Shown: positions 328 through 59,541 of the stretch, piece after piece
Layout of the letters: the number at the start of each line of letters is the position of its first letter
Position numbering within the stretch: the stretch's first letter is position 1
Virus record (IMG/VR): IMGVR_UViG_3300009130_001605
Location: 1-64,000 of that record
Source: a virus
Reading direction: 5' to 3' (one strand)
Length of the DNA: 64,000 nucleotides
Translations under genes and position numbers: made by a program
Notes under the pieces: generated by a model
Databases searched by the model: none
Told to the model about the DNA's origin: nothing
Seen by the model: the letters and a program-made list of their open reading frames with translations, nothing else

Positions 328-1497
328 ATGGATATTAAAACACCGTTGGTAAAGGATACAATCGATAAAAATGACACTAAAGCACTTGCTGAGTGGTTAC
401 TTACAAATCCTCGTCTTACAAAAGGGCCAGAGACATTGGCTTTCGAACAAGAGTGGTCTGAGTGGTTGGGTACAAAGTACTCAATTTTTTGTAACTCAGG
501 ATCATCAGCAAATTTATTAATGCTTTACGCATTGATTGCAGCAAAAAAACTTAAGAATCAAAAGGTGGTTGTTCCATCATTGGCATGGGCCACTGATCTT
601 GCACCAGTTGTTCAATTTGGAATGGAGCCAATTATCTGTGATATCAATACAGATAACTTGTCAGTTCATTTGGGTGATTTGGAAGAGATTTTCAAGAAAG
701 AGAGTCCTTCTGTTTTGATGTTGGTTTCTGTTTTGGGGTTAACACCAAATATGACCTACATTGTTGATTTGTGTAAAAAATATGATGTAATCTTACTAGA
801 AGATACTTGTGAATCACTTGGATCAGAACATCAAGGAAAAAAACTTGGAAACTTTGGCTTAATGTCAACATTTTCGCTTTATTTCGGACACCATTTATCC
901 ACTATAGAAGGTGGTATGGTCTGCACTAATGACGAAGAAATGTGTGAGGTTCTTAAGTCTATCAGATCTCATGGATGGGATAGAGATGCATCCGAAGAAT
1001 ACAAAAACAAATGGAGAGACAAATGGGGAACAGAAGACTTCAATGGAATGTACACATTTTATTACCCAGGCTTCAATGTTAGATCAACAGACCTGCAAGC
1101 GTTCATTGGAAGAAGACAGATTAAGAAAGCAGATGAAATTTGCAAACTTAGAAGCGATAATTTCCAAAAATACCAAGACAGAATAATTAACCCAACATGG
1201 AAACCAGCTACAATTGCTGGAGACTACACTTCAAGTTTCTGTTACCCAGTATTGTCTATTCATAGAGATAAAATTGTAGAAGAACTTAAGGCGAATGGTG
1301 TTGAGGTACGTCCATTAATTTGCGGATCTATGGCAACGCAACCTTTCTACATTGAAAGATATGGTAGAAAAGAATTAGGCAATGTAAAAAACTTCGATGA
1401 GTATGGGTTTTATGTACCAAATAATGACAAAATAACAGATGAGGAAATAACCCTTATCTGTAATATCATAAACAAATACACGAATGAGCAAAAATAA
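328..1497 (+). CDS. colD: ColD-like GDP-4-keto-6-deoxy-D-mannose 3-dehydratase (PLP-dependent, DegT fold)
   Basis: This 389-residue protein has the DegT/DnrJ/StrS aminotransferase fold: a CNSGSSANLLML cofactor-binding motif (55-66), LLEDTCESLG (156-165) and a C-terminal VRPLICG segment. At the position of the usual PLP-binding lysine it has histidine 188, in GHHLSTIEGG. ColD and the E1 dehydratases are marked by this Lys-to-His change, which turns an aminotransferase into a 3-dehydratase, and ColD is almost the same length (about 388). The expected reaction is removal of the 3-hydroxyl from GDP-4-keto-6-deoxymannose on the way to colitose-type 3,6-dideoxyhexoses. The neighbouring gene encodes the enzyme that makes this substrate. 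A plain aminotransferase is unlikely without the lysine; the exact sugar is inferred. Confidence 0.85.
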   Translation: MDIKTPLVKDTIDKNDTKALAEWLLTNPRLTKGPETLAFEQEWSEWLGTKYSIFCNSGSSANLLMLYALIAAKKLKNQKVVVPSLAWATDLAPVVQFGMEPIICDINTDNLSVHLGDLEEIFKKESPSVLMLVSVLGLTPNMTYIVDLCKKYDVILLEDTCESLGSEHQGKKLGNFGLMSTFSLYFGHHLSTIEGGMVCTNDEEMCEVLKSIRSHGWDRDASEEYKNKWRDKWGTEDFNGMYTFYYPGFNVRSTDLQAFIGRRQIKKADEICKLRSDNFQKYQDRIINPTWKPATIAGDYTSSFCYPVLSIHRDKIVEELKANGVEVRPLICGSMATQPFYIERYGRKELGNVKNFDEYGFYVPNNDKITDEEITLICNIINKYTNEQK

Positions 1498-1531
1498 AAC
1501 AGCAATAATTTTTGGTATTACAGGGCAATGA
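1484..1531 (+). pseudogene. orphaned duplicate of the gmd 5' end
   Basis: An ATG overlapping the last 14 bases of the ColD-like gene opens a 15-codon frame reading MSKNKTAIIFGITGQ and then TGA. This matches the first 18 residues of the intact gmd downstream (MDKKNKKVALLYGITGQ) and stops exactly at the GITGQ Rossmann motif. The overlap with the upstream stop looks like an original translationally coupled gmd start. The two copies differ at many bases, so the duplication is old or the copies come from different sources. Confidence 0.6.
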
Positions 1532-1538
1532 AATTTTT

Positions 1539-1749
1539 ATGGAAAATAAAAAGTGTGAATTGTGTAATAATAGTTTTGAATTTAACCCAAAACGAAAAAG
1601 AGAAAGGGAAAAAAGATTTTGTTCAATGAACTGCTCTAGATTATAAAGAGAGTTCTGTTAGATTTATGAAATGGATATGTAAAAACAGGGTTATTGCTGA
1701 TCAGTATAAGTATAAATGGGAAAGTTTTAAAAAACAGATAAATGGATAA
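1539..1749 (+). pseudogene. remnant of an HNH-type homing endonuclease inserted in gmd
   Basis: Two frames, out of phase by one base, carry parts of what looks like one protein. Frame one (1539-1646) encodes 35 residues with a CELC...FCSMNC zinc-finger pattern and a basic middle. Frame two (about 1639-1749) encodes a Trp/Lys-rich tail, ending in a TAA that overlaps the gmd start by 8 bases. Small zinc fingers of this type are common at the N-terminus of phage HNH homing endonucleases, but no HNH core is visible here. The piece lies between the two copies of the gmd start. The homing-endonuclease origin is inferred. Confidence 0.4.
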
Positions 1750-2776
1750 AAAAAATAAAAAAGTCGCACTTTTGTACGGAATTACGGGACAAGATGGAAG
1801 TCACCTAGCAGAACTACTTCTTGAAAAAGGGTATGAAGTACATGGTGTAATCCGTAGACACTCCACTATTGGTGGAACAGTTAGGGTTGATCATATTTTT
1901 GATCAGTTAAACCTTCACTACGGGGACATAACAGATCCAATGAACACTTCGAGGTTAATATCAGAGATTCAACCAGATGAGGTCTATAACCTTGCTGCAC
2001 AATCTCATGTAAAAGTTTCATTCGAACAACCTTATTATACTGGTATGGTTGATGGACTTGGAACATTAAATATTTTAGAAGCAGTTCGTATTCATGCACC
2101 TAAAGCTAAGTTTTATCAAGCATCCACTTCAGAGATGTTCGGTGGACTTTCTTACAACAGGCCAGAAAATGGATATACTGAGGAATCAGCATTTCATCCA
2201 AGGTCTCCTTACGGAGTTGCTAAGATTTATAGCTATTGGATGATTAAGAACTATCGTGAGTCATACGGTATGCATGCGAGTAATGGAATTCTATTCAATC
2301 ATGAAGGTGAAAGGAGAGGGGAAACGTTTGTAACAAGAAAGATTACAATGGCACTATCAGCTATTAAGAAAGGTAAGCAAGATGTATTAACACTAGGTAA
2401 CATGGATTCTTTGCGTGATTGGGGTTATGCAAAAGATTATGTGGAAGGTATGTGGAGAATGTTGCAACAAGATACTCCTGGGGATTATGTTCTTGCTACC
2501 AATGAAACTCACACCATCAGAGAGTTTGTCGAAGAAGCTGTTAAATACTGTGGTTGGGAAATCGAGTGGAAAGGTTCAGGTGTTGACGAGAAAGGGTATG
2601 ACAAAGAAACTGGTAAATTATTAGTAGAAGTTAATTCTAAGTATTTCAGACCTGCAGAAGTAGACTTGTTACTTGGTGACCATGGGAAAGCAAAAGAAGA
2701 ACTTGGGTGGGAACCGAAGACAAAGTTTAAAGATTTGGTTAAACTAATGATGGAACATGATTTAAACAATGTCTAA
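1742..2776 (+). CDS. gmd: GDP-mannose 4,6-dehydratase
   Basis: This 344-residue short-chain dehydrogenase/reductase converts GDP-D-mannose to GDP-4-keto-6-deoxy-D-mannose using bound NADP. Visible motifs are the nucleotide-binding GITGQDG (13-19), the active-site STSE (128-131), YGVAK (Tyr157, Lys161) and the family's NHE...RRGETFVTRKIT block (from residue 186). The length is normal for the family. It is the second gene of a pair with the ColD-like dehydratase, which uses its product. Its present start follows an inserted remnant and a duplicated 5' end, so this ATG was probably acquired when the locus was rearranged. Confidence 0.93.
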   Translation: MDKKNKKVALLYGITGQDGSHLAELLLEKGYEVHGVIRRHSTIGGTVRVDHIFDQLNLHYGDITDPMNTSRLISEIQPDEVYNLAAQSHVKVSFEQPYYTGMVDGLGTLNILEAVRIHAPKAKFYQASTSEMFGGLSYNRPENGYTEESAFHPRSPYGVAKIYSYWMIKNYRESYGMHASNGILFNHEGERRGETFVTRKITMALSAIKKGKQDVLTLGNMDSLRDWGYAKDYVEGMWRMLQQDTPGDYVLATNETHTIREFVEEAVKYCGWEIEWKGSGVDEKGYDKETGKLLVEVNSKYFRPAEVDLLLGDHGKAKEELGWEPKTKFKDLVKLMMEHDLNNV

Positions 2777-6764: not shown

Positions 6765-7178
6765 ATGAGAATAATAAAGAGCGGTAGAGAATATCAATTA
6801 CAAAGTGAGCAAGGATCAAATGATCAAATAATTAAGTTCTTTGAAAGAACAGCAAGGTTCTTGACAAACAGAGAACTTCATGAAGAAAAAGCTGGTGAGT
6901 CATTGCCTAATTATTTCTTCGAAACATTGCAGCTTGACCCAGATGCTGACAGCACTGTTAAGTCAACAAATCCTTTGGACATGGTTCAAAATGATGGAGT
7001 TAGTATCAAAGAAGTTGTAAATGTTTTATTGGCACAATTCAGAAGCTACGATGAAGCAGGTCTTGGTTGTCCAGAAAATGATGCAAGCATCGAACATTTA
7101 GAGGGAGTCTTAGAGCAGCAAATGCAAAGAGAATCTAACAGGAGGCTTAATAGAACTTATGCCACTTTATTAAAATAG
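6765..7178 (+). CDS. hypothetical protein with C-terminal helical hairpin
   Basis: This 137-residue protein has a helical N-terminal half (IIKFFERTARFL, 22-33) and a C-terminal region reading AGLGCPENDASIEHLEGVL then RESNRRLNR. Spacing of a Cys, an Asn and evenly placed Leu/Arg suggests a two-helix hairpin of the sort found in many small phage proteins, some of which block host defences. I cannot assign it to a named family. It stands alone, with A-rich leader DNA upstream and a 132-base gap downstream. Confidence 0.65.
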   Translation: MRIIKSGREYQLQSEQGSNDQIIKFFERTARFLTNRELHEEKAGESLPNYFFETLQLDPDADSTVKSTNPLDMVQNDGVSIKEVVNVLLAQFRSYDEAGLGCPENDASIEHLEGVLEQQMQRESNRRLNRTYATLLK

Positions 7179-7252
7179 TAATTATTTGCTTTAGTTTTAA
7201 GGGTTGGGAATTAATTTTCTTGACCTTTTTTTTGTTTTTTACTTTTTTATAC

Positions 7253-7281
7253 TTGACTATATCTTTTCTTGTTATTACATT
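7253..7281 (+). promoter_or_regulatory. promoter, TTG-N20-TACATT type
   Basis: TTG at 7253-7255 and TACATT at 7276-7281 are 20 bases apart; the ATG of the glycosyltransferase gene is at 7311. The upstream part of this 132-base gap (7179-7250) is T-rich; a weak AAGG/CCTT hairpin near 7198-7228 may end the previous transcript. Confidence 0.6.
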
Positions 7282-7310
7282 TTAATCATATAAAAAAGAT
7301 TAAATATAAT

Positions 7311-8534
7311 ATGTCAGAAAAAGTAGAAGTAAAAGCTCCTACCACAGTAGACCCGATTCAAGCTAAGATTAGTGAGGTTGTTGGTAAATTAGAGGACAAA
7401 AGTTTCTCAATTTATTTTTACGCTCCATCACTTAACTCTGCAAGTGGAGGTGTAGGTGTTTTATTCAAACAGGCCACTATCTTAAAAGAAGCTGGTTACA
7501 ACGTAAAGGTTATTTTTGAACCTAAGGTTAACGAAAGAGCGTCTTACGATGCATCGATGAAATCTAAGAAAAGGATTTTTGTATATGATGAATTTAATCC
7601 ATCTTGGTTAGATTTTGATATTTCTGATCTTGAAATTTTACCACAAGTTGGTGCTGATGAAACTGGTAAGCCAGTTGACAAAATTATTTTCATAAACGAA
7701 GAAGGAAATACTTCTGAGCAAGATGTTAAGCAGATTGAGATTAACACTGAAGATATGATAATCATACCTGAGGGTTTCCCAAACATCATGCAACAATTAG
7801 CAGGTAGTCCATGTAAGAAAATAGTTCTTGCTCAAAGCTGGATTTATGTTCTTAATTCATTACAGCCAGGTCAAACTTGGCAGTCATACGGAATTAGTGA
7901 TGTAATCTCTATTTCTGATGCAATTACTGAATATTTACACTCTGTTATGCCAGGATTAAATGTTAAACAATACAGTCAAAGTATCAACAGAGACTTGTTT
8001 AATGTTCCTAAATTAAGCGACAAAGCTCCAATGATTGCTTTCTCTTGTTCAAGAGGGCCAGAGAACAGGATGAAAACTTACAATGTTATCAGAAACTTCC
8101 AACAATGGCACCCAAAAAATAAATTTGTAAGATTTATGGAATTAGGTGGTCTTTCGAGAGAGGAATATGCGGAGAGGCTTAAAAGTTGCTCTATCGCACT
8201 TTACACTGATGAAATTGCAGGATTTGGAACAGCACCATTAGAAGCAATGGCATGTGGAACACACGTTGTTGGTTGGACTCCTCATGGAGGAAAAGAATAT
8301 ATGGGTGAAAACGGTTTCTGGGCAACAAATGGAGACATTTTCCACTTGTCAGAATATTTAGGTATTGCAGTTGATAAATTACTTAACGGTGAGTTAGACA
8401 ACCCTGAGCTTAAAGAAGCTTACGAAAGCACTTTGAGTAGATATACTGTTGAAAAAGAAAAGGAATCAGTTTTGAACATTTTTGATAAATACGTAGAAGA
8501 AAGAATAGATGAAATTAAAGGAATTCAAAAATAA
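7311..8534 (+). CDS. GT-B glycosyltransferase, family 4-like
   Basis: This 407-residue protein has a GT-B fold with a GGVGVLF glycine loop (about 46-52) and the C-terminal donor-site block AGFGTAPLEAMACG (303-316). In the family's E-x7-E motif the second glutamate is present (Glu311) but the first position is Ala303, so activity is uncertain. ATG 7311 is chosen over a TTG 42 bases upstream because its protein starts without a low-complexity extension and it lies at a normal distance from the promoter. It shares a 26-base overlap with the next glycosyltransferase-like gene. It may glycosylate virion proteins, DNA or host surface sugars; the target is unknown. Confidence 0.82.
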   Translation: MSEKVEVKAPTTVDPIQAKISEVVGKLEDKSFSIYFYAPSLNSASGGVGVLFKQATILKEAGYNVKVIFEPKVNERASYDASMKSKKRIFVYDEFNPSWLDFDISDLEILPQVGADETGKPVDKIIFINEEGNTSEQDVKQIEINTEDMIIIPEGFPNIMQQLAGSPCKKIVLAQSWIYVLNSLQPGQTWQSYGISDVISISDAITEYLHSVMPGLNVKQYSQSINRDLFNVPKLSDKAPMIAFSCSRGPENRMKTYNVIRNFQQWHPKNKFVRFMELGGLSREEYAERLKSCSIALYTDEIAGFGTAPLEAMACGTHVVGWTPHGGKEYMGENGFWATNGDIFHLSEYLGIAVDKLLNGELDNPELKEAYESTLSRYTVEKEKESVLNIFDKYVEERIDEIKGIQK

Positions 8535-9450
8535 TAAGACCCTAGTCTCACTATATGTAGATTCAGAAGGTCTAGCGAGTAAGAAAAATTTTAACAACTG
8601 TATTTACAGTATCACTAAACAAAAAACACCAGTTGACTTGGTGATTTTTCAAAACAGTTTATCGGATTCTGAAGTTGTTGAACTTGAAAAAATCTTAAAA
8701 GACCCATTGTTAACTACGCTTAAAGTTGACGAAGAGGGTAAGGCTATTACAGAGGAAAATAAACTTGAAAAAGATGATTCTCCAGTTAACTATACGATAG
8801 TTAAAACAGAAGCTAAAAACTTCTCCGAGTTATTCAATTTAGGATTTAATTATGCAGCTGCAAACGGTTATGAGTTTTACTTAACTATCGAGCAAGATGA
8901 TTTATTTTCAATCCACTGGATAGAATATGCAGAGCAGTTTGCATCAGAAGAAGAAAACAACGATGTTTTCCTTCCTTTAATCAGACACACAATGAACGGT
9001 CAATTCCACAGTCTTATTAATGAGGCAAGTTGGGTTGAAGGAATGTCTGAGGAAGCTGGTATCACTGATATCAACTTGCTTCTTAAATTTAACTCTATTA
9101 ATCCTTTGGGAGCGGTATTCAGAGTTGAGTCTATCAAAGAAAGCAGTGAAGAAATCGATGGTTTGTATCTTCCAATGAAAGAAAGTATGAAAATCACTCA
9201 TTCATATGAGTTCTTTTTAAGAATGATCTATGATGATTTGAAAGTAAAAACTGTTCCAAGAGTAGGTTATGAGCTTCAAGTGTTCCCTAAGGAATCATTC
9301 AGTGAAGCTTCTTCAAAAATACCGCCAAATTTAAATAGCATACCTGCAGAAAAAGGTGGGATGTCTCAAGAAGAGATTCAATTCTATGTTGATTCAGCTA
9401 AGAAAGAGTATTTCTTCGAAAATGATAGGAAATTACAATTCAAAGGTTAA
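8509..9450 (+). CDS. GT-A-like glycosyltransferase (putative)
   Basis: This 313-residue protein starts inside the end of the upstream glycosyltransferase gene (26-base overlap). The first half alternates strands and helices as in GT-A enzymes, and EQDD (128-131) lies after a hydrophobic strand, where the metal-binding DXD motif is expected. The C-terminal half has HSYEFFLRMIYDD (190-202), as in acceptor-site helices. The assignment is by layout and motif, not a strong family match. Pairing with a family 4-like enzyme suggests that both act on the same glycan. Confidence 0.6.
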   Translation: MKLKEFKNNKTLVSLYVDSEGLASKKNFNNCIYSITKQKTPVDLVIFQNSLSDSEVVELEKILKDPLLTTLKVDEEGKAITEENKLEKDDSPVNYTIVKTEAKNFSELFNLGFNYAAANGYEFYLTIEQDDLFSIHWIEYAEQFASEEENNDVFLPLIRHTMNGQFHSLINEASWVEGMSEEAGITDINLLLKFNSINPLGAVFRVESIKESSEEIDGLYLPMKESMKITHSYEFFLRMIYDDLKVKTVPRVGYELQVFPKESFSEASSKIPPNLNSIPAEKGGMSQEEIQFYVDSAKKEYFFENDRKLQFKG

Positions 9451-9461
9451 GGCTGAGTATC

Positions 9462-10403
9462 ATGGTAGAAGAAGAAAATTTACTACCAGGTAATCAATAC
9501 GATAATTCAAGTCAACATCAGGAGTATCCTGATGTTGACAATGATGAAACTTTCACAAAAGATGAAAAAGAAAAGGAATTTTTAAATCAATTCCATTTCA
9601 AAAATGACCAGAAAGTATACTGGGGAAAAGAGCAAGAAGTTGCTGTTGAGGACTATCTAAGAATGAGTGAAGTTTGGCTTGAAAACAGGATCAAATGGGA
9701 ACTCAAGGAAGCAAAAGAAGGTAAGAGGGAAACTGATTGGGATCTCATTTTATCTATCGAGGATTTAATTGAAAAATCGAAAGACCCTGAAGTAAAAATA
9801 AAAAGAGAAAAACTCTTTAGAGACAAAATTGATAAGCCATTAAGCAAGTTGGTGGAAAACATTGTTTTTTCTTATAAATTGTTTAGAGGTGATATTGATG
9901 TGAAAAGTCTGCAATGGGATTGCCTAGGGTTTTTAATGGAGAAGTTTGCGAACTTCAAACCATCAAAAGGGAAAAGGTCATTCTCTTATTACGGGACTGT
10001 TGTAAAACACTATTTGATTGGTGAGAAAAAAGACAACTACAAATCTCAAACTAATAATCTTGAATACGAATCTTTTAGAGAGGAAGTAAACAATAGGAAT
10101 AAGTATGAGCTTGGAGATCGAGATCCTTTGGAAGAATCAGCAAGGTTATTTGATCACATTGTTAGTGAGATAAAAATAGAACTTGTTAACACAGAAATGT
10201 CGGATAACGACAGAAATGTTGGTAATGCTATTGTAAACATTTTTGAGAGACACGAAGAAACTAATATTTACAAAAAGAACAATCTTTACAAGCTAATAAA
10301 GGAATATACTGGATTAGAAACAAAGGATATAACTTATTCACTAAACAGGTTTAAAACCTTATATAAACTTAGAAAACAATCCTTTATTACAGATGATGAT
10401 TAG
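9462..10403 (+). CDS. gp55-like late sigma factor (putative)
   Basis: This 313-residue protein has a charged N-terminal half and a central block: LQWDCLGFLMEKFANF (150-165), then KGKRSFSYYGTVVKHYLI (169-186). The block matches the sigma region 2 pattern of phage late sigma factors (T4 gp55 family), where an F-x-Y-F/Y segment precedes a helix that binds the -10 element. Residues 255-300 are helical and could act as a region 4-like module. It stands first in the run of virion genes, whose promoters share the TATTTATnA motif. A perfect inverted repeat lies in codons 17-26. Confidence 0.6.
   Translation: MVEEENLLPGNQYDNSSQHQEYPDVDNDETFTKDEKEKEFLNQFHFKNDQKVYWGKEQEVAVEDYLRMSEVWLENRIKWELKEAKEGKRETDWDLILSIEDLIEKSKDPEVKIKREKLFRDKIDKPLSKLVENIVFSYKLFRGDIDVKSLQWDCLGFLMEKFANFKPSKGKRSFSYYGTVVKHYLIGEKKDNYKSQTNNLEYESFREEVNNRNKYELGDRDPLEESARLFDHIVSEIKIELVNTEMSDNDRNVGNAIVNIFERHEETNIYKKNNLYKLIKEYTGLETKDITYSLNRFKTLYKLRKQSFITDDD
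9511..9539 (+). repeat. perfect 13-base inverted repeat in the sigma-like gene
   Basis: GTCAACATCAGGA at 9511-9523 and its exact complement at 9527-9539 are separated by GTA. The hairpin lies 50 bases inside the coding sequence and has no T run, so it is not a normal terminator. It could fold in the mRNA near the start codon. Confidence 0.85.
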
Positions 10404-29307: not shown

Positions 29308-32286
29308 TTACACTTCTAATAATTGAGCTGTTTTTGTTGCAACATCGTAAACAATTTTACCAACATCATCTCCAGTTGAATAATTATTGTTAGTTATGGT
29401 TGTTTGTATAATTTTCTTGTCTACCAATATTCCAGTTGGGTTAATGAAGTTATGTCCATTTCTAACAATTTCACCACCTAAATATGTTTCCATCTCAATG
29501 GATATGTTACCAGAATTTATCGTTTGGAATAATGCTCTCAACCTGATTTCAAAAGATACTTCAAGAGGGAAGTCGTTTTCTAACTGTAAAAAGTTTATTT
29601 TAACTGATTCAGTTCCTGTTACCTCTGAGTTATCTGTACCCCATGTTAAGAATGGCTCTCCTGTTGACAGCGGACCAACAGTTGTAGGTCCTTCACTCCA
29701 ACCTACTTCATCGCCATCTATACTGACATTTCCAGTGTTAACAATTGCAGTTTTTGTATCAAGGTCATTACCTCCTTCTGAAGTCCACTTATACCTAATT
29801 ACAGCAAAATCGAATGGATCAAAATCGAATTGATCACTCGAAGTGTTTGGGTAAATCTCAGAGGTTAAACTTATCGGATTTAACACAGAATCAAGTTTTG
29901 TTGGCATATTACTAATTACTTGTATAGGGTTTAGTTGCATGCCAACTCTAGGTGTCAAATACCCCTTAACTTCAATAATATTTAAATCTGCCTTGTTGTT
30001 ATCGTTTGTATCTGCTGTTGGTATAACTGGGTACAATTGTGGATCTAATGGCGGTATATAATCAGCCTGGAATTCAGAACCATCATTTATACCTTCTTTA
30101 TAGACAAACTTTTGCCTATTAAACAATGTGTTTCTGTATTCCGTACCTGTACCTTGGAAAATTGTTGTAGCAGGAATGAGTTGCAAGAAATAATCTTGAA
30201 ACTGCACCTCCAATAGTTCAATAAAAAACTCTAGACTTCTAAAGGTTAATCTGTTTGACCTTGGGCTATCGCCATAATAATATGTTAAATATAATTTTTT
30301 AAGATTTTGATACCAAAAGCTTGTGTGTTCTTGGTCTACCGTTTTTCTAGTTCTTGGATCTGTTGAGTTTGCATAGACATGTTCTGCAAATTCATTAAAT
30401 GTCATTCCAGAAATAACTCCATAGTCGATTACGTCACAAAATTCGTAAATATGTTCAAACGGAACTGTTAATGCACTAAATGAGAATGTTGTAGAAGTTG
30501 TACCCCACACCCAACAAGTGCCTGTTGATTGAAGCCAGTGCATTACATCACACTCAATTGCTGCAGCTGGGCTTATACTAACGTCCAATTCTTTTGTATT
30601 CAGAATGTGCTCCGTCCCAAAGTAATTTGTGTCACCAGTTTGAACTTTAATGTTATCAGCTCTCTTAATTGGATCAAATTCTGGTCTCCATTGGTTTATA
30701 TATGCTTGACCGTCACCTCTTCCTGGTCCACCTTCTTGAAATATATAAGAACTTGCATCGTAATTTATATATCCGTTTTCATTTATTTTTTTAGGACCAC
30801 CTTCAATTACAGAATCACTTATCTGAATAAAATCCGTTTGCCCTTCTGATGGGGCAAAATCACCAGTAAGACCTTCTGTAGAATCTGAAACAACTTTTTT
30901 AATATCATAAACAAATTCGTTTAGGTTGATAAGGCATTCAGGAGCACCAATTAGTTTAAATACAAACTGTAATGCATCTCTTGTACCTTTTTTCTTAAAC
31001 AGCCAAATAATATTGATTAATATTCTTTTCCATATCTCAACATTTACTTCAGCTAGTGTTGTTTTGTCCCCTTCTACATCTCCAACCAAATATTCAAACA
31101 AATCGGTTTCATTAAAAGATGATGACAATTCCCAACCTAAAAGATTACTTAATTTGTGTAAAAACTTGTTAGGCAAACTTTCTTCCTCTGAGTAGTTTAC
31201 GGTATGTGCGAATGCAATAGAGTCAATAAACTGTTTGATGTCATCAAACTGCTTAGAGTAAGTCTCTACCAAACTCCTATAATCACCTTCGTCACTATCT
31301 TGTTCCAAAAAGTTCTCAGGAACCATTGTCCTAAGCATTATACCCGTTTTACTATCATCAACTAATTGAGCAGCATTTAATATGTCTTCTAGGTAAAGTG
31401 TGAAATCACCACCTTGATTATCAGGGTTGAATCCATCAATTGATCTAGGCCATGGGAATTGCAAGAGGTTTTCTGTGTCTGGTTCTTCTGCACTTGGTAT
31501 TAAAAACTCCCCTTCCAATACCAATTGTTTTTGAAGCCTTGTCATTCTGCTTAAAAACAAGTTATGCCTTATCTTTGTAGGTCTTACATAAATAGCATTT
31601 GCATAACTACTCGCTGTTACAGAGCTGTCAAACAATAGTCCTCCAATTCTGAAATTCATGTAAGAAGTTCCAGCGGAAGTTGCAAAAGGTGTGAAACTAT
31701 AATCTATTATTTCATGTATAGTTTCGTTTCCGAATAACTGAATAGCAAATTCACTTGTATCATTTACAAGAGTTGGGTTTGTTGACGTACCTGAGTTTAC
31801 AACAACTTCGCCCTGATTTGTTGCAGATGTGTAAGGAATGGAAAACGAAGATTCAAATGTTGAACCAACTTTTTCAGTTGTGTAGTTTACTATTGTACTA
31901 CCAGTCCCATTGTCATAAGATAAAACAGCATAAGGAAAGTTTTCATTTACATCGTTTATTCCTTGTGCAACAGATGTGTAAAAAGAACTAAAGTAAGCGT
32001 AACTTAATGGGTCTGTTTTTTTAAAATTTAACTCCCTGTTATCAACAGAAAAAGAAAGCTCTGGCTCAAAAGTGCTAACATTTAAACTCTCTAATGTACC
32101 ATAACTGTCGAATGACAGATGTCTACTGTCAGCCGATAAACTATCGGAATCCGTATTTCTTTGGACTCTAAATGAACCGAATGTAAACAAAGATTCTGAC
32201 TTGCTTGTAGATATTCTTGTGTCTTCACCAGGTTTTTGAAAAACCGATAAGGTTTGACCGCTGTCTATTTTGACTAAATCTGCCAT
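29308..32286 (-). CDS. gpI-like baseplate protein with C-terminal adaptor domain
   Basis: This 992-residue protein is first in the - strand cluster. Residues about 335-455 have the tail protein I pattern: a helical FLHKLSNLLGWEL, then EIWKRILINIIWLFKKKGTRDALQFVFKLIGAPECL, in which R-x-L...K-G-T is the family hallmark; this part docks onto the gp6/GpJ ring. The last 175 residues (from FDFAVIRYKW at about 820) form a domain that is also found at the end of the virion protein at 37816. The N-terminal third is unassigned. Confidence 0.75.
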   Translation of the reverse strand: MADLVKIDSGQTLSVFQKPGEDTRISTSKSESLFTFGSFRVQRNTDSDSLSADSRHLSFDSYGTLESLNVSTFEPELSFSVDNRELNFKKTDPLSYAYFSSFYTSVAQGINDVNENFPYAVLSYDNGTGSTIVNYTTEKVGSTFESSFSIPYTSATNQGEVVVNSGTSTNPTLVNDTSEFAIQLFGNETIHEIIDYSFTPFATSAGTSYMNFRIGGLLFDSSVTASSYANAIYVRPTKIRHNLFLSRMTRLQKQLVLEGEFLIPSAEEPDTENLLQFPWPRSIDGFNPDNQGGDFTLYLEDILNAAQLVDDSKTGIMLRTMVPENFLEQDSDEGDYRSLVETYSKQFDDIKQFIDSIAFAHTVNYSEEESLPNKFLHKLSNLLGWELSSSFNETDLFEYLVGDVEGDKTTLAEVNVEIWKRILINIIWLFKKKGTRDALQFVFKLIGAPECLINLNEFVYDIKKVVSDSTEGLTGDFAPSEGQTDFIQISDSVIEGGPKKINENGYINYDASSYIFQEGGPGRGDGQAYINQWRPEFDPIKRADNIKVQTGDTNYFGTEHILNTKELDVSISPAAAIECDVMHWLQSTGTCWVWGTTSTTFSFSALTVPFEHIYEFCDVIDYGVISGMTFNEFAEHVYANSTDPRTRKTVDQEHTSFWYQNLKKLYLTYYYGDSPRSNRLTFRSLEFFIELLEVQFQDYFLQLIPATTIFQGTGTEYRNTLFNRQKFVYKEGINDGSEFQADYIPPLDPQLYPVIPTADTNDNNKADLNIIEVKGYLTPRVGMQLNPIQVISNMPTKLDSVLNPISLTSEIYPNTSSDQFDFDPFDFAVIRYKWTSEGGNDLDTKTAIVNTGNVSIDGDEVGWSEGPTTVGPLSTGEPFLTWGTDNSEVTGTESVKINFLQLENDFPLEVSFEIRLRALFQTINSGNISIEMETYLGGEIVRNGHNFINPTGILVDKKIIQTTITNNNYSTGDDVGKIVYDVATKTAQLLEV

Positions 32287-37815: not shown

Positions 37816-38700
37816 ATGGCAAGATTAGAGTCAGCATCAACAATATATGTTCAAGCCTACCTTACAAGTAAGGGTAGAGAATATTTTTCTGGATTTAATT
37901 TAGATGGTGAAAACGCTAGGTTTGATGGTGATATCGATTTGTTTCAAGCAAAAACTTTTTCTTTGTATGATACCGATGTTAATTATAAAACCACACAGCC
38001 ATTAGAATCTGGTGATGTTCCAGATATATCTGGATCAGACGGATGTTTAATGACATCTGCATACCAACTTAGAAAACATTTTTTAACAAATGGTGTAAAT
38101 GTAGAAGAAATACCATTTGATTTTGCTGTTATTAGATATTCTTGGGAAGCAGTTGGCTATCAAACTGATGTGGATACTAGAACTGCAATTTTGGGTACAG
38201 GATCAGATGCTGTTGACATGGTAGATGTTGGTTATGATAGAGGTACTCAAGTTAACATGACTTACCCAAACCCTGTTGGTGGAGTAGAAAGATATGTTGG
38301 ACCATCTGAAGATGAATATTATTTAAAATGGGGTAGGGACAATGCAAGTGCAAGTGTTGGAGGTAAATATACAGAAAGTGTTCTTGTTGATTTTAATAGA
38401 CTTATAGAAGACTTTGGTACCGTTGAAGAATTTCAAGTTAGACTAAGATCTTATTGGGTTAGTAGCATTGCTATTAGTGGGCCATTGACAGTTGAATTAA
38501 CCACTTATACAGGTGGTGAAATGGTTTATGATTCATATACATTTAATTACTTTAATGAAGGTGGCGTAGAATCTTTTACAACAAGTTTTGATACCGTTTT
38601 AAATCATTATGTAGTAAATGGGAATGAAAATGGTAGTGATGTTGGATTAATAAGTTTTAATGCAGCAACAAGAACTGCTAGTTTAATAAAAGTTGAATAA
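37816..38700 (+). CDS. modular virion protein: GR adaptor plus FDFAVIRY domain
   Basis: This 294-residue protein has two parts. Residues 10-95 are the GR-type adaptor (YLTSKGREYFSGFN, FSLYDTDVNYK, GDVPDISG). Residues 99-294, from IPFDFAVIRYSW, match the last 175 residues of the gpI-like baseplate protein at 29308 (FDFAVIRYKW, KWG/TWG, YTGGEM/YLGGEI). The two domains meet at a short linker with no spacer. Either domain may bind a common partner in the tail. Confidence 0.65.
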   Translation: MARLESASTIYVQAYLTSKGREYFSGFNLDGENARFDGDIDLFQAKTFSLYDTDVNYKTTQPLESGDVPDISGSDGCLMTSAYQLRKHFLTNGVNVEEIPFDFAVIRYSWEAVGYQTDVDTRTAILGTGSDAVDMVDVGYDRGTQVNMTYPNPVGGVERYVGPSEDEYYLKWGRDNASASVGGKYTESVLVDFNRLIEDFGTVEEFQVRLRSYWVSSIAISGPLTVELTTYTGGEMVYDSYTFNYFNEGGVESFTTSFDTVLNHYVVNGNENGSDVGLISFNAATRTASLIKVE

Positions 38701-49619: not shown

Positions 49620-52600
49620 ATGGCAAAAAGGAAAAAAAGCAATAAACCTGTACAAAAGGTTGAGATAAGACGACTGAGAGGTGGTACTAACTACCGCTTT
49701 ACATATGACTACATACCAATGCTAAACGCATACATTAAAGGCAATTTGCCTCGTGAACACTGGAAAGTTCATGTTGAGAATGTGTATGATCCGATAGCTA
49801 AACAACCAAAAGACGTTTGGTCTAGAGACGTTAGGGAGTTTTCTGTTGGTAAAGTAATTGCTTTCCTTGTTGATAATGGAATTAAATTCGACTTCATCAA
49901 TATGACTGAAGGTGAAATTAACGTTCTTCGTAAAGAATTTAGAGAAAGACAAATGAGGATGAAACAGATCCTTAAAGAAAAAGCTGATGGTCTTGATGTG
50001 ACAGGTATGGATTTTAGTTATATGACAATGCAGCCATATGACTACCAAAAGAAAGCAGTTAAGTTTTTTGAGCTGAATGAAGGAAATGTTATTTTAGCCG
50101 ACCAACCAGGTGTTGGGAAACAAGCAGGTTTAGACACTCTCATTTCTACTCCAAATGGATGGAAAAGAATGGGAGATATGGAAGTTGGTGATAGAATACA
50201 CAACAGGTTTGGAAGTGTTTCAAATGTAAAAGGTGTGTATCCTCAAGGATACAAGGATTCTTATAAAATAACATTCAATGATGGTTCTCACACTTTCTGT
50301 GGATTAGAACACTTATGGACTGTTAGAGATAAAAACAGAAGGAAAAGAAACAAAGGGTGGGTCGTTAAATCTTTAAAAGAATTATTAGACTCAGGACTTG
50401 AATATGGAATGTCACCAAACGGATCTAATTCAAATAGAAAACCTGCTTTAAAATGGGAGATTCCAGTTACTGAACCTGTTTATTTTGACGACAAGGAATA
50501 TTATATTAGCCCATATCTACTAGGAGCATTAATCGGTTGCGGTTGCACATGCGTTAAATTAAACATGTATTTAACTGTACCAGACTTTCAAATAGAAATT
50601 GCAAACAAAGCAGAGAGTTTGTTGCCAGAAGGATATGGATTTAGTGTTAACAGAAGCCCTAAACGTCCACACTATAACATTGTTAAAGACAAAAACGCAA
50701 AAACGCTTGAAAACAGAGTTGTAACATACATAAGAAGACTTGGCCTTGATGTTAAATCTAGTGATAAATTTATACCACAAGAATACATGATAGGATCTGT
50801 TTATCAGAGAATTGAGTTGTTACGTGGATTGATGGACACTGATGGTAGTTGTTTGAAAAACAGAAGTAATTACCACACCACTTCAGAAAAGTTGGCAAAA
50901 GATGTTGTTGAACTAGTTCAATCACTTGGTGGCATTGCAAAAATAAACATCTACGATAGATCTCATGAAGACAAATCTACTGAATACATAGTTAATATTA
51001 AAACTAACTTCTGCCCTTTTTCTTTGAGTGAAAAAGTGAACGAATGGAAGTCTGTGAAGTCTAATAAAATATCACGTTACATTAAAAGTGTGGAATTGTT
51101 CAAACAAGAAGAACAACAGTGTATTGCAACAGATGCACCAGATCACACTTATTTAACGGATCAATACATTGTTACACATAACACATTGCCTCCTTTTTCA
51201 TATGCATACAAGCATAATCTTAAGACGTTAATCGTTTGCCCATCTTCTCTTAAACTAAATTGGAAAAGAGAGATTGATAGCTTTCTTAAACAGCATTCTT
51301 TTGTTTACAAATATGCTCCACCAAAAAGGAGTAATAATGTAAATCATCCAAAAGAATATTGTAACTTCCATATAATCAATTACGAATCTCTTGAGACATA
51401 TTTCAAATATGAATTTAGTCACAAGTGTTCTTCTCCAAACTGTAAATTTAAAGCAGTTGATCTTGAGAAGGGTTATAAGAAATGTCCTTTGTGTGCCACT
51501 CCTAAGAGTGTCAAGTCAAGAAGGGTTAATATTCTTGAATTCGAAGACAAGCAAGGTATGACATTAAATCCAGAGGATTATGATTTGATTATTCTTGACG
51601 AATGCCATTACATCAAAAACGAGGCTGCACAAAGAACAAAGATTATCAAAAAGGTCTTTAAAGACATTCCAAAAAAAATACTTATTTCTGGCACACCAAT
51701 CAAAAGTAGACCAATGGAGTTTTTCTCAATATTAAACTTCCTTAGACCTGAAGAGTTCAATAGCTCTCATGAGTTCGGGAAAAGATATGGAGCAGGATTT
51801 CAAGATAACTTCGGTTGGAAATATGACGGAGCATCAAACCTTGAAGAATTGTTTGAGAGAGTTCAGCCATATTTTTTAAGAAGATTGAAAAGCGATGTGC
51901 TAGAACTTCCACCTAAGACTTTTGTAAACATTCCTATCGAGCTTACAAATAAGCAGATGAAGGATTACGGGAAAGTTGAAGAAGGTGTTGTTGAACAACT
52001 TGAAGGAGAAGATAATTCTGGTGAGAAAAAATCAGCACTTGAAATCATTCTTGAATTGAAGAGGTACGTTTCAACAATAAAAGTGAAAGAATCAATTCCG
52101 ATTATCAAGGATATTATTGAACAAGGTGAAAAGATTGTTGTATTCTCCGAGTTCCAAGATACAGCAGAGGCAATTAGAGATGCATTCGCTGGACAATCCG
52201 TTATGATACATGGTTCTGTTGGAACTGAAGAAAGAGATCAGGCTGTTCAACAGTTTCAAGACCCGAAAAGTGATATAAAGGTTTTCTCTGGAACAATCGG
52301 TGCTGCAGGAGTTGGGCTTACGCTTACTCGTGCAAGTAATTTAATTTTTATCGGTTCAGCATGGACAAGTGGAGATATGGAACAAGCAGAAGATAGGGTT
52401 CACAGAGCCTCAACAACAGCAAGTAAAGTAACAATTATGACGCTTTATTGTGAGAACACAGTTGACGAATATATTATGCAACTACTTCAGGATAAGGCAC
52501 AAGTGGTTTCGAAAGCACTTGATAATAAAGTAGCAAACAAAACTGTAAATCAAACCGACTCTTTGAGTCAAGAGACAAGCAACATGAGTATTGTTGGAGC

Positions 52601-52628
52601 ATTAGTTGCAAGACTAACAGGAAACTGA
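49620..52628 (+). CDS. SNF2-family DNA helicase/translocase containing an intein
   Basis: The 1002-residue precursor contains a 648-residue SNF2 helicase split by a 354-residue intein (168-521). The host protein has Walker A QPGVGK|T (the intein sits between Lys and Thr), the DECH box (660-663), a zinc-finger-like CSSPNCKFK...KCPLC (about 602-625) between the lobes, and motif VI QAEDRVHRAS. The second RecA lobe ends in TLYCENTVDEYI, as in SMARCAL1/Rad54-like enzymes. It remodels replication forks or DNA-protein complexes. Splicing is needed to rebuild Walker A, so activity depends on it. Confidence 0.85.
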   Translation: MAKRKKSNKPVQKVEIRRLRGGTNYRFTYDYIPMLNAYIKGNLPREHWKVHVENVYDPIAKQPKDVWSRDVREFSVGKVIAFLVDNGIKFDFINMTEGEINVLRKEFRERQMRMKQILKEKADGLDVTGMDFSYMTMQPYDYQKKAVKFFELNEGNVILADQPGVGKQAGLDTLISTPNGWKRMGDMEVGDRIHNRFGSVSNVKGVYPQGYKDSYKITFNDGSHTFCGLEHLWTVRDKNRRKRNKGWVVKSLKELLDSGLEYGMSPNGSNSNRKPALKWEIPVTEPVYFDDKEYYISPYLLGALIGCGCTCVKLNMYLTVPDFQIEIANKAESLLPEGYGFSVNRSPKRPHYNIVKDKNAKTLENRVVTYIRRLGLDVKSSDKFIPQEYMIGSVYQRIELLRGLMDTDGSCLKNRSNYHTTSEKLAKDVVELVQSLGGIAKINIYDRSHEDKSTEYIVNIKTNFCPFSLSEKVNEWKSVKSNKISRYIKSVELFKQEEQQCIATDAPDHTYLTDQYIVTHNTLPPFSYAYKHNLKTLIVCPSSLKLNWKREIDSFLKQHSFVYKYAPPKRSNNVNHPKEYCNFHIINYESLETYFKYEFSHKCSSPNCKFKAVDLEKGYKKCPLCATPKSVKSRRVNILEFEDKQGMTLNPEDYDLIILDECHYIKNEAAQRTKIIKKVFKDIPKKILISGTPIKSRPMEFFSILNFLRPEEFNSSHEFGKRYGAGFQDNFGWKYDGASNLEELFERVQPYFLRRLKSDVLELPPKTFVNIPIELTNKQMKDYGKVEEGVVEQLEGEDNSGEKKSALEIILELKRYVSTIKVKESIPIIKDIIEQGEKIVVFSEFQDTAEAIRDAFAGQSVMIHGSVGTEERDQAVQQFQDPKSDIKVFSGTIGAAGVGLTLTRASNLIFIGSAWTSGDMEQAEDRVHRASTTASKVTIMTLYCENTVDEYIMQLLQDKAQVVSKALDNKVANKTVNQTDSLSQETSNMSIVGALVARLTGN
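50121..51182 (+). mobile_element. intein with class 3 signature and degenerate LAGLIDADG endonuclease
   Basis: The intein runs from Gln168 to Asn521. Block A is QAGLDTLIST (first residue Gln, not Cys/Ser/Ala). Block B ends EHLW, with Trp233 two places after His231. Block F holds Cys501 in CIATDAPDHTYL, and block G is IVTHN with Thr519, His520, Asn521, followed by Thr522. Trp, Cys and Thr at these sites are the WCT signature of class 3 inteins, which splice through the block F cysteine and need no N-terminal nucleophile. The first LAGLIDADG motif reads LLGALIGCG with Cys307 where Asp is catalytic; the second, LLRGLMDTDG, is intact. Confidence 0.8.
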
Positions 52629-57543: not shown

Positions 57544-59541
57544 ATGAGCAATATCTTAGATATAAAAGATTCAATTGGTGCATATACTTTTTATGCAACA
57601 AATACAAACAAAGAACAATACTTTTGTAAATGTGGAAACCATTTCGAAGTAGATGCTCCTTCAGACGAACTTTCAGATGTAGAAAACCTGTTTAATGATG
57701 GTGACGATGATGATGGTATTATGGGAGCACTTAACAGTGCCAAAATATCTTTAAGGGATAATATTAAATGCCCTCATTGTAATGTCGATTACAAAATCCC
57801 TGTAAACCAAAAGAGATTAAGAGAAATTGGTAAATATTTCTTATCAGGATACAATGTTAACGAAGATAACGGTAGACTGACCTTAAATAAGGTTAAAGTA
57901 AAACCTTTGCTTGCACCAGAAGAATCAGAGGAACCTTTGGAATTTGAAGAAATTGTTAGGCACCTTTCTTATGAGATTGAGACAGGGAAATTGTTTTTCA
58001 AAGATTATAAGTCTGAAGAAATAGAGTTTGATCTAGATCAAACTCTATCAGTAGTTAGCAAGTTTTTTGAAAATGACACACCACTTGTTGTCAATCTATT
58101 TGATTTACATAACTACATAATGAAATTATCAAATTATGTATCCGATTCAGAAAATATCGACACAGTAAAAGGTTTACTTGAGGAAGCAAGGTCAAATATG
58201 AACAAGAGTGCTGATGACACTTTTGAGAAAGTCTTATCTATCTTGTTGTCAATCATCAAATATTCAAACTTGTCAACAATTGCAATGACTAAAAGTCCTA
58301 TTTTCCTATACGAAATGCTTAGAGATTGTAATCCTCCGAAAGCAGAGGTGTTGGAGAAAGAGGGTGTCACTTCACCAATCAAGATTTTTAACTTCTTGGC
58401 AAAAACTTACATCAACAGAATAAACGAAGAAGTTAAAGAAGAAAAGATTGTTGAAAAGGAATTTACATTCTCTAGTAATATCGTCTTGGAAGACCACGAG
58501 GATCATTCAAAGGTATCAAAAGTTGGTGATGATTTTGAGGAAGGAACTGAAGATACAATGTCTGTATCAGAAGGAGAAACAAGAGAGTTGAAAATAAACT
58601 TAAAATCCATTCAGGATTATGAGTCTAAGGTTTCTAAAACCGCCCAAGGTAATTTTGAGGTTTTTCAAATCGGAGGTGACGGACAGATTTCAAAATTCAT
58701 ATACAAGAAACTTAAAGCGTTTCACGACTATAAACAACTGGTTAAGTATATGAAACATTTCGAGTATAAGAACTTGGTTGAACTTATGACGAAATATGAC
58801 TATGATCTTATCGTGAACATGATAGATGTGATCTATTACCGATTAGACATAGACATGGATGAGGTGAAAAGGCTTATTCCGTTATTTATAGACCATTGTC
58901 AGGTTCAAACCAAAGATATGAAGATAAAAACTAATACGTTTGATCCAAATGAAGAGCTTACGTTAGATTACACTTACATCAATAGTTTTAATTTTGAGTT
59001 TTACGATGACTGTAAGATGATGATTAAAACTTTGGAATTTGATCCAAGAAAGGATTTGTACAAAATCAAAACAAATGCCGTTCTTAAAGCCTTCCATGAT
59101 GAAGTGGTGAAATACTATGGGGCAATTAAATTAGAAGAAGAAGGCGGTTATAAAGGTTATTTCAATAACTTTAAATTCCTTGAGGATAAAAACAACTACG
59201 ATGGGTTATTGAGATTCGAAATAATTGATACTCCTAAAGCTGTTGTTGCAGAAGGTAGGGAACTACACCATAGTGTGAGTTCTTACGCAGCTAGATTGAT
59301 GGACGGGGATTATGTATTACTTAGAGTCTATGATGACACTGAGGACGCTCCAGAAAAGGATTTAGATAGATTCACAATGGGGCTTCATTACAACAAGAAT
59401 AACGGTCTTGAGTTTGATCAATTAAAAGGTGTGGCAAACAAGCCAGCAAGTGATCGGGTTAAGAAAATGGCTATTGAATGGATGAAATCCAAAGAAGTGA
59501 ATTATAACGAAAAAAGACCAGACATCCGTATTAGACGATAA
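57544..59541 (+). CDS. PcfJ-domain protein with N-terminal zinc ribbon
   Basis: This 665-residue protein has a zinc ribbon at the start (CKCG at about 28-31 and CPHC at about 77-80). The middle is helical (140-500). The C-terminal 180 residues form a PcfJ-like module: EGRELHHSVSSYAARLMDGDYVLLRVYDD (about 570-598) then FTMGLHYNKNNGLEFDQLKGVAN. PcfJ-like proteins are known from conjugative plasmids and phages, but their function is unclear. A perfect 28-base palindrome lies inside at 58021. The 122-base upstream gap has no strong late motif. Confidence 0.7.
   Translation: MSNILDIKDSIGAYTFYATNTNKEQYFCKCGNHFEVDAPSDELSDVENLFNDGDDDDGIMGALNSAKISLRDNIKCPHCNVDYKIPVNQKRLREIGKYFLSGYNVNEDNGRLTLNKVKVKPLLAPEESEEPLEFEEIVRHLSYEIETGKLFFKDYKSEEIEFDLDQTLSVVSKFFENDTPLVVNLFDLHNYIMKLSNYVSDSENIDTVKGLLEEARSNMNKSADDTFEKVLSILLSIIKYSNLSTIAMTKSPIFLYEMLRDCNPPKAEVLEKEGVTSPIKIFNFLAKTYINRINEEVKEEKIVEKEFTFSSNIVLEDHEDHSKVSKVGDDFEEGTEDTMSVSEGETRELKINLKSIQDYESKVSKTAQGNFEVFQIGGDGQISKFIYKKLKAFHDYKQLVKYMKHFEYKNLVELMTKYDYDLIVNMIDVIYYRLDIDMDEVKRLIPLFIDHCQVQTKDMKIKTNTFDPNEELTLDYTYINSFNFEFYDDCKMMIKTLEFDPRKDLYKIKTNAVLKAFHDEVVKYYGAIKLEEEGGYKGYFNNFKFLEDKNNYDGLLRFEIIDTPKAVVAEGRELHHSVSSYAARLMDGDYVLLRVYDDTEDAPEKDLDRFTMGLHYNKNNGLEFDQLKGVANKPASDRVKKMAIEWMKSKEVNYNEKRPDIRIRR
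58021..58048 (+). repeat. perfect 28-base palindrome inside the PcfJ-domain gene
   Basis: The 14-base arm ATAGAGTTTGATCT is followed directly by its complement, with no loop. The encoded peptide EEIEFDLDQTLS does not require it. A perfect 28-mer of this kind is not expected by chance in 64 kb. Confidence 0.85.

Follow-up and report, generated by a model that had tools for sequence, protein, structure and literature searches.

The insertion in the SNF2-family helicase gene of an uncultured phage was analysed, and it is very probably a class 3 P-loop intein in which splicing has been kept and homing has probably been lost. The window, a stretch of 64,000 nucleotides, comprises most of a 75,938-base IMG/VR virus record (IMGVR_UViG_3300009130_001605). 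The helicase gene is an open reading frame at 49620..52628 and the intein of 354 residues, Gln1 to Asn354, lies at 50121..51182 (codons 168-521); both are on the plus strand, as are all the features of this gene described below. The precursor has 1002 residues and the spliced product would have 648. The intein residues Gln1, His64, Trp66, Cys140, Cys334, Thr352, His353 and Asn354 and the Thr at +1 correspond to Gln168, His231, Trp233, Cys307, Cys501, Thr519, His520, Asn521 and Thr522 of the precursor. The 75,938-base record yielded no further intein.

The helicase assignment was made with Pfam (SNF2-rel_dom, E 5e-37; Helicase_C, E 9e-14) and with PHROG 62, DNA helicase (E 2e-104). The N-extein ends at 50100..50120 with DQPGVGK, the N-terminal part of Walker A, and the C-extein at 51183..52628 carries the motifs DECH, SGTP and QAEDRVHR. 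When the exteins were joined (648 residues), Walker A (DQPGVGKT), DECH, SGTP, GVGLTLT and QAEDRVHR were all found intact, which is expected if splicing is selected. Around the intein, at 50028-51186 of the window (residues 137-522 of its reading frame), this gene is also matched by PHROG profiles for terminase large subunit (19299, 36964, 15), helicase loader (50) and primase (510). Class 3 inteins seem to be included in these five profiles, and automatic annotation could thus label this SNF2 helicase as a terminase.

The boundaries of the intein were determined from orthologs with an empty and with a filled site. The intein separates Lys and Thr of Walker A, DQPGVGK|TLPPF, within a P-loop of the form GxGK|T; its first codon is CAA (Gln) and its last AAC (Asn), followed by ACA (Thr+1). 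An intein-free ortholog on a viral contig (L025), obtained by a search with the C-extein, is 48% identical to the joined exteins over 645 residues and reads GDAPGVGKTLSALVYA uninterrupted across the insertion site. Its neighbourhood is similar at the level of translations, with genes resembling the PD-(D/E)XK nuclease of the window upstream and its peptidoglycan-binding amidase downstream. The profile search gave 20 distinct phage SNF2 orthologs, 13 without the intein and 7, the window included, with it. All 13 intein-free orthologs (L025 and 12 others) read GD[Q/A]PGVGK-T without a gap, so that GVGK runs directly into Thr, and all seven intein-bearing ones are interrupted at the identical bond, GVGK|T. 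Both junctions are fixed by these orthologs, and the Gln1 boundary is therefore no matter of interpretation. The results confirmed two claims of the earlier note, namely that the intein interrupts the GVGK|T site and that it starts with Gln, which the empty-site orthologs put at position 1. From the lack of Cys or Ser at position 1 one could suspect that the intein belongs to class 1 or class 2 and that its junction has been misplaced. The probability of this reading is negligible, as the empty-site orthologs determine the boundary with single-residue precision and blocks A, B, F and G align throughout with class 3 inteins, with Cys at F:4; the shifted junction was rejected on the empty-site orthologs. 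The search of IMG/VR for further GVGK|QAG junctions returned 69 contigs fitting the DNA pattern, none with a class 3 intein there.

The conservation of the splicing residues was analysed in an alignment of 200 inteins, that of the window and 199 others, non-redundant (<90% identical) and collected via conserved motifs from IMG/VR, GTDB genomes and a small set of phage records. The closest inteins were 56-57% identical to that of the window. The WCT signature, which defines class 3 inteins (PMC3196547, PMC7891396), is complete. The N-terminal half of the HINT splicing domain (approximately residues 1-108, 50121..50444), which matches the structures of the class 3 inteins 6bs8 and 6rix, contains His64 of block B:10 (50310..50312; His in 200/200) and Trp66 of B:12, the W of WCT (50316..50318; Trp in 197 of the 200). 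The C-terminal half with blocks F and G (51072..51182) reads EEQQCIATDAPDHTYLTDQYIVTHN and contains Cys334 at F:4 (51120..51122; Cys in all 200), the predicted first nucleophile and branch point, and Thr352-His353-Asn354 at G:5, G:6 and G:7 (51174..51182; Thr 199/200, His 198/200, Asn 200/200). The following Thr+1 (51183..51185) is at once the Walker A Thr and the predicted second nucleophile, a position with Thr in 184 and Ser in 16 of the 200. Position 1 holds no Cys, Ser or Thr nucleophile, and the tree placed the intein among the WCT inteins. Judged from its sequence, the insertion at 50121-51182 is a class 3 intein, in accordance with the earlier note; the phage setting proposed there is likewise borne out. 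The similarity lies well beyond chance, with tblastn E-values down to 3e-85 in phage records, the 56-57% identity to the closest inteins and the Foldseek match given below. The class 3 Thr that the note had listed is present, but it is Thr519 at G:5, while Thr522 is the predicted +1 nucleophile. The Pfam model Intein_splicing (PF14890) had no match anywhere in the record, which marks the limit of the model's reach and not the absence of an intein.

The residue at position 1 was surveyed in 189 non-redundant class 3 inteins having Lys or Arg before the junction. Ala was found in 119, Gly in 13, Glu in 12, Ser in 11, Met and Cys in 8 each, Leu and Phe in 7 each, Asp in 3 and Gln in one, that of the window (codon CAA, block A:1, 50121..50123). 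The seven intein-bearing SNF2 orthologs have Q, E, A, S, A, A and S. The Gln1 singled out by the earlier note is hence unique among the 189, in a motif-based sample (IMG/VR, GTDB, few phages) that says little on its rarity elsewhere; it is less exotic than had been thought, as nine other residues occur at this position. Since residue 1 is not the nucleophile in class 3 inteins, Gln1 is regarded as a tolerated variant and no new mechanism. As far as these sequences tell, class 3 inteins vary freely at position 1 and Gln1 is a new letter there. The survey shows how little this residue is constrained after the transfer of the nucleophile to block F, and Gln1 gives an extra natural data point on the leaving-group requirement of the first step. 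Eight related P-loop inteins (L075, L082, L107, L123, L369, L372, L385, L401) combine Cys1 with the full WCT; they bear a mixed class 1/class 3 signature and either Cys may start splicing.

In the published class 3 mechanism, the Cys at F:4 attacks the N-terminal splice bond, the N-extein is transferred to the +1 residue and Asn cyclises (PMC4031507, PMC7891396; mechanism and definition also in PMC7664689). By analogy with its class, Cys334 of the window intein would attack the Lys167-Gln168 peptide bond directly, with Gln1 acting as the leaving-group residue of this step only and having no role as nucleophile. The N-extein would then move to Thr+1, Asn354 would cyclise, and an acyl shift would leave a normal GVGKT Walker A. 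The intein could instead be a pseudogene that does not splice or only cleaves, like Arth_1007 of Arthrobacter FB24; such a state would suit Gln1 and Cys140, neither of which recurs in the sample. The Arthrobacter pseudogene, however, has lost the F:4 Cys and the B:10 His (PMC3196547), both of which are present here; only 1 of 29 strongly conserved columns deviates in the HINT region, below the median of 2, and the helicase motifs are intact. A pseudogene is accordingly considered very unlikely, and the intein of the window is expected to splice.

The K|T insertion splits the ATP site and the unspliced helicase should therefore be inactive. It had been claimed earlier that splicing would control the helicase; this holds in so far as any P-loop intein must leave before the ATP site can form, but nothing here shows regulation. 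Conditional splicing as a helicase switch, for example by redox control via the catalytic Cys334, gains some interest from the split Walker A, which should keep the precursor inactive, and from the M. smegmatis DnaB intein, which is described as an oxidative stress sensor (PMC6195587). Nothing specific to the window sequence points to it, and 13 orthologs lack the intein, so that such a switch is no conserved part of helicase biology; it is judged quite unlikely.

The structure of the intein was predicted with AlphaFold2 from 38 related sequences. The model has a mean pLDDT of 94.1 and shows a HINT fold combined with a LAGLIDADG fold, whose two LAGLIDADG helices span residues 131-140 and 227-241. 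Foldseek matched the model to PI-SceI (E 1e-15), and the comparison with full-length inteins gave PI-SceI (Z 27.4), TliVMA and PI-PfuI. Of the small inteins, 6bs8, the class 3 DnaB intein of M. smegmatis, came closest (Z 18.9 and 28% identity, with 1.7 A over 123 residues), with the class 3 M. chimaera DnaB intein 6rix at Z 18.3 and 2.2 A, structure matches within one Z unit being counted as tied.

The LAGLIDADG homing endonuclease domain extends approximately from residue 116 to 314 (50466..51062; Pfam LAGLIDADG_3, E 4.5e-9) and its fold matches PI-SceI, TliVMA and I-DmoI. The first motif reads LLGALIGCGC, with GCG instead of GDG, so that Cys140 (TGC, 50538..50540) replaces the first LAGLIDADG Asp. 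In the alignment this position is Asp in 195 of 200 inteins, Asn in four and Cys only in the window, counts that are biased towards Asp by the GDG pattern used in the genome scan; in an earlier viral-only subset, found mostly via other motifs, the Asp was present in 77 of 79. The second LAGLIDADG Asp, Asp241 (50841..50843), is intact and is Asp in 196 of 200. The profile match to PI-SceI placed Cys140 on Asp218 and Asp241 on Asp326, which are the two catalytic aspartates of that enzyme. The acidic residue that ends both motifs of an active endonuclease is thus present in motif 2 (Asp241) and replaced by Cys140 in motif 1. These data agree with the change from Asp to Cys described in the earlier note. 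Its wording of a damaged endonuclease stands for the loss of the first Asp, but the damage is a single residue, and elsewhere the domain is conserved to the same degree as in relatives.

Other explanations of the endonuclease sequence were considered. General decay of the domain was rejected, as 2 of its 32 strongly conserved columns deviate, which equals the median, and its mean identity to the outgroup inteins (45.0%) is the highest of the seven orthologs. Arg304 to Glu was rejected as a second deviation, since it is common to the related L030 intein. A frame-shift origin of the GCGCTC stretch was also rejected, as no Asp codon lies in another frame and the length is within one residue of the relatives. 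The Cys140 codon is read from a single contig and may be a sequencing or assembly error. Four other inteins (L076, L118, L149, L389) have Asn instead of the first LAGLIDADG Asp, and loss of this residue has probably happened several times.

The homing-cycle model predicts that an intein, once fixed, retains splicing and loses cutting. For the window intein, Cys140 is proposed to have replaced the metal-binding Asp of motif 1, by which double-strand cutting and homing were probably lost, and splicing would be kept because the helicase needs it. The same conclusion of the earlier note is a reasonable one, given that the splicing residues are consensus and the joined helicase keeps its motifs. 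The loss of cutting looks recent or incomplete on this evidence; the lone change at Cys140 fits a very recent loss, retention of the domain as a scaffold, or residual activity. An endonuclease that is conserved apart from one lost catalytic Asp resembles an early stage in the homing cycle. Retention of the domain for a new job, as a non-cutting DNA binder, a scaffold or a Cys-based redox or metal sensor (Cys140, Cys142, Cys144) that tunes splicing, is considered highly improbable.

The distribution of the intein was compared with that of its host gene. Five outgroup SNF2 proteins have an intein at the same site; their exteins are 25-27.5% identical to the SNF2 extein of the window, as against 43-49% for the inteins. 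The exteins of L255, which is empty, and L325, which is filled, are sisters that share 78% identity and are joined with 100% support. The higher identity of the inteins and the empty/filled sister pair indicate horizontal movement among SNF2 P-loops, with or without repeated loss; the lineage would have moved by homing. The branches of the intein tree have mixed support and no specific donor is proposed. The intein has 34.3% G+C, close to the 35.9% of its extein and the 34.1% of the window, and the base composition gave no sign of very recent import. This clear mobility of the lineage, together with the good conservation of the remaining domain, the second Asp included, would allow an endonuclease that is still active, with Cys140 or a neighbour replacing the Asp, perhaps as a nicking or weak cutter, in an intein that is still mobile. 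Such activity is nevertheless unlikely, since the missing residue aligns with PI-SceI Asp218 and is replaced by Cys in no other of the 200 inteins, and since the loss of the LAGLIDADG Asp residues in the PhoVMA intein accompanies the loss of cutting (PMC8966425). Lost homing with retained splicing is hence preferred.

The surroundings of the gene were also inspected. The contigs that carry two relatives of the helicase gene measure 388,594 and 372,283 bases, and an SbcC-like gene is common to all six relatives checked (38-43% identity); the window is plausibly one part of a large phage genome. In the record of the closest intein-bearing relative (L324, record G006), the match to the SbcC-like gene at 6866-10288 has one internal TAG stop. 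Two window reading frames of very different length, 29308-32286 (minus strand) and 37816-38700 (plus strand), have matches to PHROG 24956, a family of unknown function, at their C-termini, sharing a domain of about 170-200 residues. The large protein encoded near the 3' end (57544-59541, plus strand) has a PcfJ-like domain (Pfam PF14284, E 1.8e-7). An aminotransferase gene adjoins a nucleotide-sugar epimerase gene (328-2776, plus strand) and a weakly glycosyltransferase-like gene lies at 7269-8534; the three suggest a phage-borne sugar pathway.

The intein was finally compared with known systems. The class 3 inteins of mycobacteriophage Bethlehem DnaB, D. radiodurans Snf2 and M. smegmatis/M. 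chimaera DnaB1 likewise have WCT, a C-terminal His-Asn and the HINT fold, and likewise lack the class 1 nucleophile at position 1 (PMC3196547); Gln1 is absent from the 188 other class 3 inteins of the position-1 survey. The K|T bond of Walker A has been called the classic P-loop intein site (PMC5050341). Mycobacteriophage TerL1-a is also a P-loop K|T intein of a phage ATPase, whereas the host protein here is a SNF2 helicase from an uncultured phage group. The SNF2 inteins of Brevundimonas phage Domovoi (L019) and of the Bacteroidota contigs L105, L115, L148 and L107 share the site (DxPGLGK|T), WCT and the LAGLIDADG domain and are 42-49% identical to that of the window, but have both LAGLIDADG Asp residues and Met, Ser, Phe, Ala or Cys at position 1. 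PI-SceI and PhoVMA have the same HINT and LAGLIDADG architecture; both are class 1, unlike the window intein. PI-SceI is an active endonuclease, in contrast to the predicted state here, and in PhoVMA the active-site residues are missing from both motifs (PMC8966425), whereas the window intein lacks only the first. Insertion in the P-loop, residence in phages and degenerate endonucleases all have published precedents, and the window intein is an ordinary member of the known class 3 P-loop family with two unusual residues. It leaves the known picture of class 3 inteins unchanged and adds to it one well-bounded class 3 P-loop intein of uncultured phages with natural empty- and filled-site orthologs.
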